The notes beneath the pieces were generated by a model. The model had not been told where the DNA came from. It searched no databases and saw only the letters and a program-made list of their open reading frames with translations. 64,000 nucleotides of DNA from Parvularcula lutaonensis (lineage in GTDB: Bacteria; Pseudomonadota; Alphaproteobacteria; Caulobacterales; Parvularculaceae), in NCBI RefSeq assembly GCF_014651915.1, contig NZ_BMXU01000002.1:62001-126000 (forward strand). The letters are read 5' to 3'. The position numbers and the translations under genes were made by a program. This document shows, in pieces, positions 59,902 through 64,000 of the stretch (the first letter of the stretch is position 1; every line of letters starts with the position of its first letter).

Positions 59902-60579
59902 TCAGTACTCTCGGATGAGCCCGGCAAGGCGGCCCTGCACCTTGACCTGGTTTGGGCCGAAGATGCGGGTCTCGTAAGCCGGGTTCGCCGCTTCGAGGGC
60001 GATGGAATTGCCTTTCTTTCGGATACGCTTGAGCGTCGCCTCTTCGTCTTCGACAAGAGCGACGACGATCTCTCCATTCGGAGCGTCGTCACAGCGACGG
60101 ATAATGACGGTGTCGCCGTCGAGAATCCCGGCGTCGATCATTGAGTCCCCGTGGACCTCGAGCGCAAAATGCTCACCGCCACGCAGCATGGACGGCGGAA
60201 CCTTCACCCGCGCCTGTTCGTGCTGGATGGCGGCAATGGGCGTGCCGGCAGCGATACGGCCGAGGACGGGTACACCTTCCTCTTCCATGCCGGTCGGCTC
60301 GCTCTTGTAGGAGTGGTTCTCAATCACCGCAGGCTTGAAAGGCTCACGCCGCGGCGGTGTCGCAGCCTCGGGCAGGCGCAGGACTTCGAGCGCCCGGGCC
60401 TTGTGCGGCAAGCGCTTGAGGAAGCCGCGCTCTTCGAGGGCGGTGATAAGACGGTGGATTCCCGACTTCGACTTGAGGTCGAGAGCGGTCTTCATTTCCT
60501 CGAAAGACGGCGACACGCCGGTCTCCTCGAGACGCTGATGGATGAACATCAGCAGCGTGCGCTGTTTGGCCGTGAGCAT
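59902..60579 (-). CDS. lexA: LexA repressor
   Basis: A 225-residue SOS repressor. The winged helix is at residues 1-65 ([34 protein letters not shown]). The RecA-stimulated self-cleavage site is Ala111-Gly112 in RIAAGTP, with catalytic Ser146 in HGDSMID and Lys184 in ATLKRI. A linker near 85-100 is longer than in E. coli, as usual for alphaproteobacteria. A LexA box at 60606-60620 lies 27 bases upstream and implies self-regulation. Confidence 0.97.
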
Positions 60580-60623: not shown

Positions 60624-61415
60624 CTACCCGTCAACAGCCTGGACGAGTTCCTTCAGCGCAGCGCCCGGATCAGGTGCACGCATCAGGTGCTCCCCGATGA
60701 GGAAACGGCGAATCCCGGCGCTGACGAGGGTGCGCATGGCCTCGGCCCCATCGACCCCCGATTCGCTCACGATCGGTGTGCCGCCGGCCTTCGCAGCGAG
60801 GCGCGGCGTGGTCTCTATATCGGTTTCGAAGGTCTTGAGATTGCGGTTGTTGACGCCGAGGAGGTCGGGTTCGAGCGCCAGGGCTCTTTCGAGTTCCTCT
60901 TCATTATGCACCTCGGCGAGGACGTCGAGGTTCCAGCGCGCCGCCTCTTCGCGCAGCTCTGCGGCGAGCGCGTCGTCGAGGGCGGCGAGGATCAGGAGGA
61001 TCGCGTCCGCGCCCCGCGCGCGTGCTTCGACCACCTGATAGCGGTCGACCATGAAGTCCTTGCGCAGGAGGGGGATCGAGGTGGCGGCCCGCGCCTCCAT
61101 CAGGAAGTCGATGTGACCTTTGAAGCTCGGCTCGTCCGTCAGCACCGAGAGACAAGACGCGCCACCGCGTTGGAGGCTGGCGGCAAGCTCGGCAGAATGA
61201 AAGTCCTCGCGGATGAGACCCTTGGAGGGGCTTGCGCGCTTGACTTCTGCGATGATCCCGAGGCCGTGCTCCGCGCCTTTGTGCAGCGACGCAGCGAAGC
61301 CGCGAGGGGTGATCTCCTGCGCCCGCTCGGCCAGTTCGTCCACAGACGTTACTGCCTTCGCAGCGGCGACTTCGTCTTTCTTGTAGGCGATGATCCTGTC
61401 GAGGACGGTGGTCAT
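60624..61415 (-). CDS. trpC: Indole-3-glycerol phosphate synthase
   Basis: A 263-residue TIM-barrel enzyme of tryptophan synthesis. Motifs are [59 protein letters not shown] and IVSESGV with the active-site Lys and Glu. Its ATG overlaps the trpD stop (ATGA). lexA follows. Confidence 0.97.
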
Positions 61416-62419
61416 GCTTTCTTCTCCGTCATCAGGCGGAGCTTTTCTTTCGCCGCGCCCGAGTCGATGGACTCGGCGGCGAGCGCCGCGCCTTCGGCCA
61501 GGTCTTCGGTCCGTCCAGCGACGATCATGCATGCGGCGGTGTTGAGGAGGACGGCATCGCGATAGGCGCCTTTCTCTCCCTCCAGAAGCGCCCGAAGGGC
61601 AGCTGCGTTTTCCTCGGGAGTGCCTCCAACCAGGGTCTCGTTGCCGCGGCGATTGAGGCCGGCATCTTCGGGCGTGACGACGAATTGGCGAATTTCGCCG
61701 TCCTTGAGCTCGGTCACTTCATTGCCACCAGCGAGGGAGATCTCGTCCATGCCACCCGCGCCGTGGACGACCCATGCGCGCTTCGACCCCTCCGCACGAA
61801 GAACTTCCGCGAACCGCGGCGCCAGCTTGTTGTCGAAGACGCCGAGAAGCTGGTAGCGGGCCTGCGCCGGGTTCATCATCGGGCCGAGGATATTGAACAT
61901 CGTCCGGAAGTTCAGCGTCTTCCGGAGGGGCGCGACCTTGGCAAGGATCGGGTGATGGTTCGGCGCGAAGAGGAAGGTGATGCCGTCTTCGGCCAGGCGC
62001 TTCTCCTGCGTCTCGATGCTCTCGGTCAGATCGACGCCGAGCTGGGCGAGGACCTCTGACGAGCCGGACTTTGACGTCACGGCGCGGCTGCCATGCTTGG
62101 CCATGACCAGGCCCGCGCCTGCGCCGACGATCGCCACGGCCGTCGAGATGTTCACGGTGCTGATTCCGTCGCCGCCTGTGCCGCAGCAATCGATCGCACC
62201 TTCTGGCGAAGCGATGTTCTTTGCACGGAGCTTCAGGAAGCGGATCGCGGCGAGCAGCTCCTCCGTCGTCTCGCCGCGCACGCGGAGGGCCGTCAGGAAG
62301 GCTGCTGCCTGTTCGTCAGGGACACCTTCGTCAAAGATCGCCGTCAGGGCCGCTTCCATTTCGCGGGGGCGAAGTTCCTCGCCATCAACGGCTGCGCGGA
62401 GGATATCGAGAAAGCTCAT
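61412..62419 (-). CDS. trpD: Anthranilate phosphoribosyltransferase
   Basis: A 335-residue enzyme transferring phosphoribose from PRPP to anthranilate. The GTGGDG motif is in IDCCGTGGDGISTVNIST, followed by MAKHGSRAVTSKSGSSEVLAQLGV and FAPNHHPILAKVAPLRKTLNFRTMFNILGPMMNP. Its ATG overlaps the trpG stop by four bases and its stop overlaps trpC. Confidence 0.97.
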   Translation of the reverse strand: MSFLDILRAAVDGEELRPREMEAALTAIFDEGVPDEQAAAFLTALRVRGETTEELLAAIRFLKLRAKNIASPEGAIDCCGTGGDGISTVNISTAVAIVGAGAGLVMAKHGSRAVTSKSGSSEVLAQLGVDLTESIETQEKRLAEDGITFLFAPNHHPILAKVAPLRKTLNFRTMFNILGPMMNPAQARYQLLGVFDNKLAPRFAEVLRAEGSKRAWVVHGAGGMDEISLAGGNEVTELKDGEIRQFVVTPEDAGLNRRGNETLVGGTPEENAAALRALLEGEKGAYRDAVLLNTAACMIVAGRTEDLAEGAALAAESIDSGAAKEKLRLMTEKKA

Positions 62420-63009
62420 GCTACTTCTGCCTTGATCCCGGCGAGGGCCAGGAAGTTGCCGAGCATCGTCGCGCCTGCAGGGGACAGATAGCTCTCAGGG
62501 TGGAACTGGACGCCGTAGATCTCCTTGCCGATCACCTTCAGCGCCATGATCTCGCCGTCATCCTCCGCATGCGCCAGAACGTCGATGGTGTCAGGCACCG
62601 ATGAAGGGTCAACGGTCAGGGAGTGGTAGCGGGTAGCCTCGAAGCGCTCGCCGATACCGGTGAAGAGCGGGTCGGCCTTGGCCGTCACGGTGCTGACCTT
62701 GCCGTGCATCGGCTTGCGGGCACGGATGATCTTGGCGCCATGGGCCTGGGCGATCGACTGGTGACCGAGGCATACGCCGAAGAGCGGCACGTCCCTCTCC
62801 GCTGCCAGCGCCACCATGTCGAGGCAGATGCCCGCCTGGTCGGGGTCACACGGTCCGGGCGACAGGATCACCGCCCGTGGGCGCAAGTCCATCGCCTGCT
62901 CTGCAGACAACTCATCGTTGCGAATGACCTTGGACCGCCCGCCGAACGGGGCCAAAAGCTGGACGAGATTATAGGTGAAGCTGTCGTAGTTATCGACGAT
63001 CAGGATCAT
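62416..63009 (-). CDS. trpG: Anthranilate synthase glutaminase subunit
   Basis: A 197-residue class I amidotransferase. MILIVDNYDSFTYNLVQLL, ILSPGPCDPDQAG, and the nucleophile elbow GVCLGHQSIAQA are visible, with the His-Glu pair in QFHPESYLSPAG. It supplies ammonia to TrpE. Its ATG (63009-63007) overlaps the ATG of the opposite-strand gene through the palindrome CATG, so no space is left between the two starts. Confidence 0.97.
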   Translation of the reverse strand: MILIVDNYDSFTYNLVQLLAPFGGRSKVIRNDELSAEQAMDLRPRAVILSPGPCDPDQAGICLDMVALAAERDVPLFGVCLGHQSIAQAHGAKIIRARKPMHGKVSTVTAKADPLFTGIGERFEATRYHSLTVDPSSVPDTIDVLAHAEDDGEIMALKVIGKEIYGVQFHPESYLSPAGATMLGNFLALAGIKAEVA

Positions 63010-63820
63010 GGTGCGAGGCCGGCGTAAAATCTGGGTGTTAGCAGCCGCAGCGCTGAGCGCAATTGCGCCTGCCCGCGCGGACGACCTTGACGCAGGCCGC
63101 GCGCCGATGCGGCTCGCAGCGGTGAGGGATGAGAGGCCCAAGGTCGCGATCGTCATCGATGATGTCGGCCTTGACTGGCGGCGCTTCCAGGCCGTGAACC
63201 GCCTGCCCATGCCGGTGACGATCGGGTTCCTGCCCTATGGCCCGGATGCCCAGGCGATGCTCGATTCCAAGGACCCGCGGCACGATGCGATCCTGCACCT
63301 TCCGATGGAGCCGCATCGCCGTAAGGAGGATGCGGGGCCTGACATGGTGCCGACCGGCGCGCCTGATGCCGTACGCGCGGCGCTCCACGCCAACCTTGCG
63401 AAGCTGACCGGTTTTTCGGGGGTCAACAACCACACCGGGAGCAAGACGACGGCCGACGAAACCGCCATGCGCATCGTCCTTTCGGAGCTCGAGGCCCGGG
63501 GGCTGTACTTCCTCGACAGCATGACGACACCGCGGACCAAGGCGAAACGGGTGAGTGCGACGACGGGGGCCACGGTGATCGAAGGCGATCTCTTTCTGGA
63601 TGGCGACTTCGGCAAGGGTGGCGAAAAGCATGTGCGGCGGCAGCTCAGGCGGCTGGAGAAGATTGCGGAGAAGCACGGCGAGGTGATCGCCATCGGGCAT
63701 CCCTACCCGGCCACCATTTCCGTGCTGAACGAATGGGCACTGGAGCGCGGCGCGGACCTGCAATTCGTCCGTGCGAAGGACCTCGCGGCAGAGGTGGAGC
63801 AGCGAGGGACCGGCTCCTAG
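63008..63820 (+). CDS. Divergent polysaccharide deacetylase (YibQ-like), antisense within the trp operon
   Basis: A 270-residue exported protein. A signal peptide is likely at residues 1-24 (RRKIWVLAAAALSAIAPARA). The divergent polysaccharide deacetylase core is VAIVIDDVGLDWRRFQAV, TIGFLPYGPDAQAML, DAILHLPMEPH, SGVNNHTGSKTT and GLYFLDSMTTP. It ends AIGHPYPATISVL. The family is periplasmic, function unclear. The start ATG shares CATG with trpG; a GTG one codon later is possible. Its stop overlaps the trpE stop on the other strand. Thus it sits exactly between trpE and trpG. Confidence 0.88.
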   Translation: MVRGRRKIWVLAAAALSAIAPARADDLDAGRAPMRLAAVRDERPKVAIVIDDVGLDWRRFQAVNRLPMPVTIGFLPYGPDAQAMLDSKDPRHDAILHLPMEPHRRKEDAGPDMVPTGAPDAVRAALHANLAKLTGFSGVNNHTGSKTTADETAMRIVLSELEARGLYFLDSMTTPRTKAKRVSATTGATVIEGDLFLDGDFGKGGEKHVRRQLRRLEKIAEKHGEVIAIGHPYPATISVLNEWALERGADLQFVRAKDLAAEVEQRGTGS

Positions 63821-64000
63821 AGTTCGGCTTCGGCGGCCTTGATGAAGGCTTCCTTGATCGCGCGGCTCTTGGCTTCACACTCGGCAAGCTCCGCCAGCGG
63901 ATCGCTGTCATGGACGACGCCAGCGCCCGCCTGGATGTGGACCTCTCCGTCCTTCACCACCGCCATGCGCAAGCCGATGCAGCTGTCGAATTCTCCGTCC
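63817..64000 (-). CDS. trpE: Anthranilate synthase component I, C-terminal end (partial)
   Basis: The last 60 codons run off the right edge of the window. They read DGEFDSCIGLRMAVVKDGE, then VHIQAGAGVVHDSDPLAELA, the chorismate-binding C-terminus of TrpE with the QAGAG motif, then a helix ending EAEL. The stop TAG at 63817-63819 overlaps the stop of the opposite-strand deacetylase gene by two to three bases. It is the first gene of the trp unit interrupted by that gene. Confidence 0.93.
   Translation of the reverse strand, partial: DGEFDSCIGLRMAVVKDGEVHIQAGAGVVHDSDPLAELAECEAKSRAIKEAFIKAAEAEL

Follow-up and report, generated by a model that had tools for sequence, protein, structure and literature searches.

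Towards the right-hand end of the window (the whole stretch of DNA analysed, 64 kb in length), the trp genes lie on the minus strand in two parts, the 3′ end of trpE and a run of trpG, trpD and trpC headed by trpG, and the space between them is filled by a gene of the opposite strand (Table 1). The first-pass annotation had described the locus in these terms, and its minus-strand coordinates, 63817 for the end of trpE and 63009 for the start of trpG, are correct. The complete deacetylase gene that it had placed between them is real (PF04748, 63008-63820, plus strand), as are the shared CATG at the starts (63007-63010) and the overlap of the stops (63817-63820). The trpG ATG occupies 63009-63007 (minus) and the predicted ATG of the deacetylase begins at 63008 (plus), and within CTAG the deacetylase ends at 63820 and trpE at 63817 (minus). 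The full trpE (502 aa) extends past the window edge (63817-65325, minus, on the window scale; L009:7817-9325), and its start overlaps a ppiD-like gene by 4 nt. As read from the sequence, ppiD-trpE would form one transcription unit and trpG-trpD-trpC another.

Table 1. Genes and sequence elements of the split trp locus, in window coordinates
Feature	Positions	Strand	Support and remarks
lexA	59902..60579	-	TIGR00498 over cut-off; next gene downstream of trpC
trpC	60624..61415	-	PF00218; 4-nt overlap with trpD
trpD	61412..62419	-	TIGR01245 over cut-off; 4-nt overlap with trpG
trpG, anthranilate synthase glutamine amidotransferase, 197 aa	62416..63009	-	PF00117, E 9.2e-54; TIGR00566 over cut-off
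CATG, common to the trpG start and the predicted deacetylase start	63007..63010		2-nt overlap
PF04748 (YibQ-type) divergent polysaccharide deacetylase (predicted), 270 aa	63008..63820	+	PF04748, E 1.7e-60; antisense to the trp genes
Candidate -10 of trpG promoter, GCTAAC	63037..63042	-	Opposite deacetylase codons 10-12 (codons 11-12 are TTA GCA); TGCTA invariant in 4/4 clade genomes
Candidate -35 of trpG promoter, TTGCGC	63057..63062	-	Opposite deacetylase codons 17-19; ATTGC invariant in 4/4 clade genomes
CTAG, common to the trpE and deacetylase stop codons	63817..63820		4-nt overlap
trpE, 3′ end	63817..64000	-	TIGR00564 over cut-off

The product of the intervening gene is a predicted divergent polysaccharide deacetylase, with a PF04748 score of 204.2 bits against a curated cut-off of 27.5 and with Asp51, Asp52, His97 and His142 invariant among 11 aligned sequences. 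The solved structures nearest to it by sequence are 2qv5 (Atu2773) and 2nly, and its N-terminus resembles a signal peptide.

The background for the two junctions comes from a 464-kb sample of this genome, made up of the window and twenty 20-kb stretches, with genes called by a home-made caller. An overlap of exactly 4 nt is found in 16 of the 73 convergent pairs, and a gap of zero or less in 26, so the overlap of the trpE and deacetylase stops is ordinary. Divergent pairs show a median gap of 179 nt (n=64) and a single overlapping case besides deacetylase/trpG, and the start junction is rare in this genome. RNA folding at the trpE/deacetylase junction showed nothing unusual (z of -0.19 and -0.40), and a search of the trp strand between 62000 and 64000 gave no intrinsic-terminator-like site, so that read-through from trpE would be possible. 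Finally, an Rfam scan of 8 loci at gathering thresholds returned one tRNA, and neither a trp leader nor a riboswitch.

Recurrence of the layout and the position of trpE

Loci ordered ppiD-trpE, antisense deacetylase, trpG-trpD-trpC are found repeatedly in Parvularculaceae and in other Alphaproteobacteria, always with the deacetylase antiparallel, which bears out the conservation that the first-pass annotation had proposed to check. In the family set of 37 Parvularculaceae loci (this genome counted, and L076, from another family of the order, left out), the deacetylase is antiparallel to trpG in 34/34 and to trpE in 25/25 of the loci with the respective gene nearby. The wider neighbourhood of tpiA, ppiD, often lexA and an antiparallel deacetylase matches that of relatives, in which lexA is also a common neighbour. 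Among the named loci, which are the best 80 matches to the deacetylase listed and include Sneathiella, Kordiimonas, Thalassospira, Stella, Azospirillum and Iodidimonas, 54 have trp genes near the deacetylase. Once L080, L081, L082 and L134 are dropped as repeats of G003, G013, G012 and G019, 76 of the 80 listed remain, with trpE antiparallel in 41/41 and trpG in 37/37. In all 31 named loci with both genes, again from the best 80 listed, the deacetylase sits between them, a sample that was drawn through the deacetylase and therefore gives no frequency of Alphaproteobacteria without the layout. The layout is old and widespread in Alphaproteobacteria.

In 10/10 Parvularcula genomes the deacetylase and trpG stand side by side in divergent orientation, whereas trpE abuts the deacetylase in only two of them (G000, the genome analysed here, and G009). 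In seven genomes trpE is not adjacent: it lies 0.6 kb (G004), 1.2 kb (G006), 2.4 kb (G005), about 8.7 kb (G001) or about 64 kb (G002) away, or else on a different contig (G003 and G008, the deacetylase being contig-internal in both), and in one more (G007) it was not placed. At the level of the family, trpE and the deacetylase stop are no more than 105 nt apart in 14 of the 25 loci with both genes, and 0.6-4.4 kb separate the two in the other 11, nine of which have inserts whose longest open frame runs on the trpE strand. The inserts of L049, L057, L067, L070 and L073 encode exported-looking proteins of 591-617 aa, and that of L044 holds frames of 434, 158 and 129 aa, Tad-like by eye only.

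Two genomes of another genus, G021 and G035, lack trpE and trpG at the conserved site. In G035 the two genes adjoin each other elsewhere in the genome, and in G021 a 747-aa open frame elsewhere matches both. In all, trpE and trpG were not detected at the conserved site of four loci, L060 (G021), L074 (G035), L093 and L137, which keep some of the neighbours (ppiD, trpD or lexA, varying by locus). In these four loci, the genes at the site have probably been replaced by a fused or contiguous trpEG.

These data bear on the possibility that the locus is a non-contiguous operon, in which a single message would run from trpE across the antisense deacetylase into trpG-D-C, the deacetylase mRNA acting as a full-length antisense, and polymerase collision and RNase III providing reciprocal control. 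The lack of spare bases between the genes, the trp strand without a terminator-like site after trpE, the unremarkable fold of the junction and a layout like that of menE-menC-MW1733-ytkD-MW1731 in S. aureus, as described in the accessible text of PMC7154746, would all agree with it. However, trpE is not adjacent in 7/10 Parvularcula genomes, including two of the four in which no gap separates the deacetylase from trpG (G001, and G003, which is P. maris), kilobases can separate it from the deacetylase in the family, as noted above, and trpG is immediately preceded by a promoter-like dyad (see below). Such an operon is unlikely here. A single trpE-G-D-C message, one of the two options given in the first-pass annotation, finds no support as a mechanism of general validity, since trpE is away in those seven genomes and the deacetylase and trpG stay together in all ten. 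In G001 and G003, trpG is unlikely to depend on trpE, because trpE is not adjacent there.

The compacted clade and a candidate trpG promoter

The four zero-gap genomes (G000, G009, G003 and G001) form a clade with 100/100 support in a trpE tree of 16 rows. From the Asp-Asp motif of the deacetylase to the trpG ATG there are 133 nt in G000, 142 in G009, 130 in G003 and 190 in G001. Of the 30 other loci measured, 29 have 277-654 nt there, and one has 2,582 nt. The shrunken deacetylase N-terminus and spacer mark out this 4-genome clade, and the simplest history would be one loss, on the clade branch, of the N-terminal extension of the deacetylase and most of the spacer. With this shrinkage, the trpG promoter would have come to lie among the codons for the deacetylase signal peptide. 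A second deacetylase homologue, mostly a longer frame (about 370-640 aa), is present in 31/37 family genomes, and a single homologue at E 0.001 was found in the four zero-gap genomes and in G024 and G025.

The favoured start of the deacetylase is ATG 63008, because the n-region that it would give is positively charged (MVRGRRK... here, MAARKSKNR... in G009) and no stop interrupts the frame that begins at the shared CATG in any of the four clade genomes. By itself, the CATG does not argue for shared starts, since a C precedes the trpG ATG in 10/10 Parvularcula genomes, even those with a clear spacer; the conservation of CATG in relatives, which the first-pass annotation had wished to see checked, does exist, but extends to genomes in which the starts lie apart. 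It is rather unlikely that the start codons do not overlap, the deacetylase being translated from an internal start that leaves a short conventional divergent spacer. The home-made gene caller preferred such a start, an in-frame GTG at 63035 with a 25-nt gap to trpG, an ATG in G001 lies 22 nt from trpG and is followed by a lipoprotein-like signal, and the CATG next to clear spacers fits this possibility as well. Against it, the charged n-region would be lost in G000, and throughout the clade the frame starting at the CATG stays open.

Within the putative signal-peptide codons of the deacetylase, 53 nt upstream of trpG, all four clade genomes carry the dyad TTGC-N16-GCTAR, which would be the trpG promoter. 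In the form TTGC-N16-[GC][CGT]TA[AG], a pattern picked by eye after viewing the sequences, the -53 site is the sole match on both strands of the 64-kb window, and there are 54 matches in the 2.95-Mb genome. The backwards-read control gives 213 matches genome-wide in G000, so the rarer dyad shows no sign of being a general promoter of this genome. Upstream of trpG, 21 of 90 columns do not vary within the clade, and ATTGC, the spacer AGCG and TGCTA account for 14 of these; at the fourfold sites of trpG, only 11/55 are invariant across the same genomes. The four genomes are related, so that their agreement does not amount to four independent draws. Outside the clade, 12 relatives have a comparable dyad ahead of trpG. 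The matrix made from them, with training rows that were chosen by the same spacing rule and include some close relatives of each other, ranks the clade sites 2nd of 39,948, 1st of 25,750, 3rd of 25,550 and 1st of 25,470 positions. A looser pattern occurs upstream of trpG in 17/34 family loci, the four of the clade included, against 1.7 expected by resampling, and is not enriched in other Alphaproteobacteria (5/35 against 2.5 expected).

The deacetylase codons opposite the dyad would bear its mark. Leu codon 11 is TTA, TTA, TTA and CTA across the clade, two codons that are rare in the sample from this genome (together 23/899 Leu codons at positions 2-20, and 172/11,784 beyond), and Ala is encoded by GCA at codons 12 and 18 in 4/4, GCA accounting for 14% of Ala codons at positions 2-25. 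The enrichment of AT-rich codons near N-termini was considered as a cause of the TTA, and with TTA+CTA at 2.6% against 1.5% further in, it makes such a codon more likely but hardly accounts for 4/4.

The spacing of the -35 and -10 elements in Caulobacter RpoD promoters is similar to that of the candidate. The consensus of those promoters, as given in the accessible part of PMC8144410, is TTGaCgS / GCtANAWC, and shares with the candidate a GCTA-type -10 and a TTG -35. The site matches it at 3/6 and 4/5 of the defined positions, a moderate agreement because the -35 here is TTGC rather than TTGA (PMC8144410). In a scan with the consensus, as far as the excerpted source defines it, the -53 site comes first on the trpG strand in only 2/4 clade genomes, and equally high scores occur on the opposite strand. 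An E. coli-type promoter scan did not return the -53 site and lists another minus-strand site, within trpG (62996-62968). A search for the own promoter of the deacetylase inside trpG singled out no site; conservation is high over the opening codons of trpG, but the protein is conserved there too. In other Parvularcula (L041, L043, L045, L046 and L047), a TAGGG-type element is found roughly 20-40 nt upstream of trpG, and in L041, L046 and L047 it constitutes the second half of the looser pattern; these elements suggest a promoter change within the genus.

Transcription of the locus

Taken together, it is quite probable that an old split locus has been compacted, and that trpG would start from its own candidate promoter within the deacetylase signal-peptide codons. 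RNA polymerase would begin within the deacetylase gene, some 20 nt ahead of trpG, and read trpG-D-C, whereas the deacetylase would be transcribed the other way from a promoter inside trpG. A trpG promoter inside the antisense gene, the other option of the first-pass annotation, is the better supported one, because the dyad is present in 4/4 clade genomes, has a counterpart in 12 relatives and coincides with the rare Leu codon 11. The annotation had also held that a separate trpG promoter, or relatives with contiguous trpEG, would speak against a single operon. The promoter exists as a sequence prediction only, and relatives of this kind do occur, side by side in G035 and as one frame matched by both genes in G021.

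A mixed situation would be compatible with an own trpG promoter: where trpE abuts the deacetylase, transcripts of ppiD-trpE may in addition read through, antisense to the deacetylase. The overlap of the convergent stops and the trp strand without a terminator-like site speak for it, but Rho-dependent ends are invisible in sequence, and the 4-nt overlap seen in 16/73 convergent pairs does not mark this junction out. Such an addition is possible and somewhat doubtful. Rather unlikely is a complete merging of the control regions of the divergent genes in this clade, in which the promoter and 5′ end of each would be inside the coding sequence of the other. Their mutually exclusive starts would then make a minimal switch that couples an envelope enzyme to the synthesis of tryptophan, and read-through from trpE could optionally add a full-length antisense.

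The compacted locus with an own trpG promoter would carry two lessons. What looks in the raw sequence like a split operon can be a long-standing arrangement of separate transcription units. Moreover, the dyad is a clean candidate for a promoter conserved within the codons of another gene, with TTA/CTA at codon 11 and GCA at codons 12 and 18 as its footprint, and if this is true, synonymous recoding of the deacetylase should silence trpGDC. No printed account of such an embedded trpG promoter was found in the open-licence literature searched.

Comparison with known systems

Mackenzie, Simmons and Kaplan (Genetics, 1999) are said to have described a trpE-yibQ-trpGDC locus in Rhodobacter sphaeroides. 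That locus reportedly resembles the present one in gene order, with the yibQ gene between trpE and trpGDC. YibQ is a PF04748 protein, and a PF04748 gene lies in this place here. The new element is apparently the zero-gap variant, with a promoter that seems to be written into the signal-peptide codons, and it would be a modest variant of an old layout.

In the S. aureus menE-menC-MW1733-ytkD-MW1731 locus, a non-contiguous operon is defined by joint transcription, according to the accessible text of PMC7154746. Both loci have an opposite-strand gene between genes that are otherwise co-directional, but the adjacency of trpE is not kept within the genus and trpG has its own promoter-like element here, differences that refer to the system as presented in that text (PMC7154746). 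Divergent overlaps represent 1% (457) of the well-characterised overlaps in the portion of PMC2478687 available, which adds that the 75 divergent overlaps of >60 bp examined were all judged to be misannotations. With the divergent overlapping pairs of PMC2478687 and PMC2174442, as far as the excerpts of both describe them, the deacetylase/trpG pair has the head-to-head overlap in common, whereas its own overlap would be of 2 nt, is conserved in a clade and seems to be coupled to a candidate promoter in the codons of the partner.
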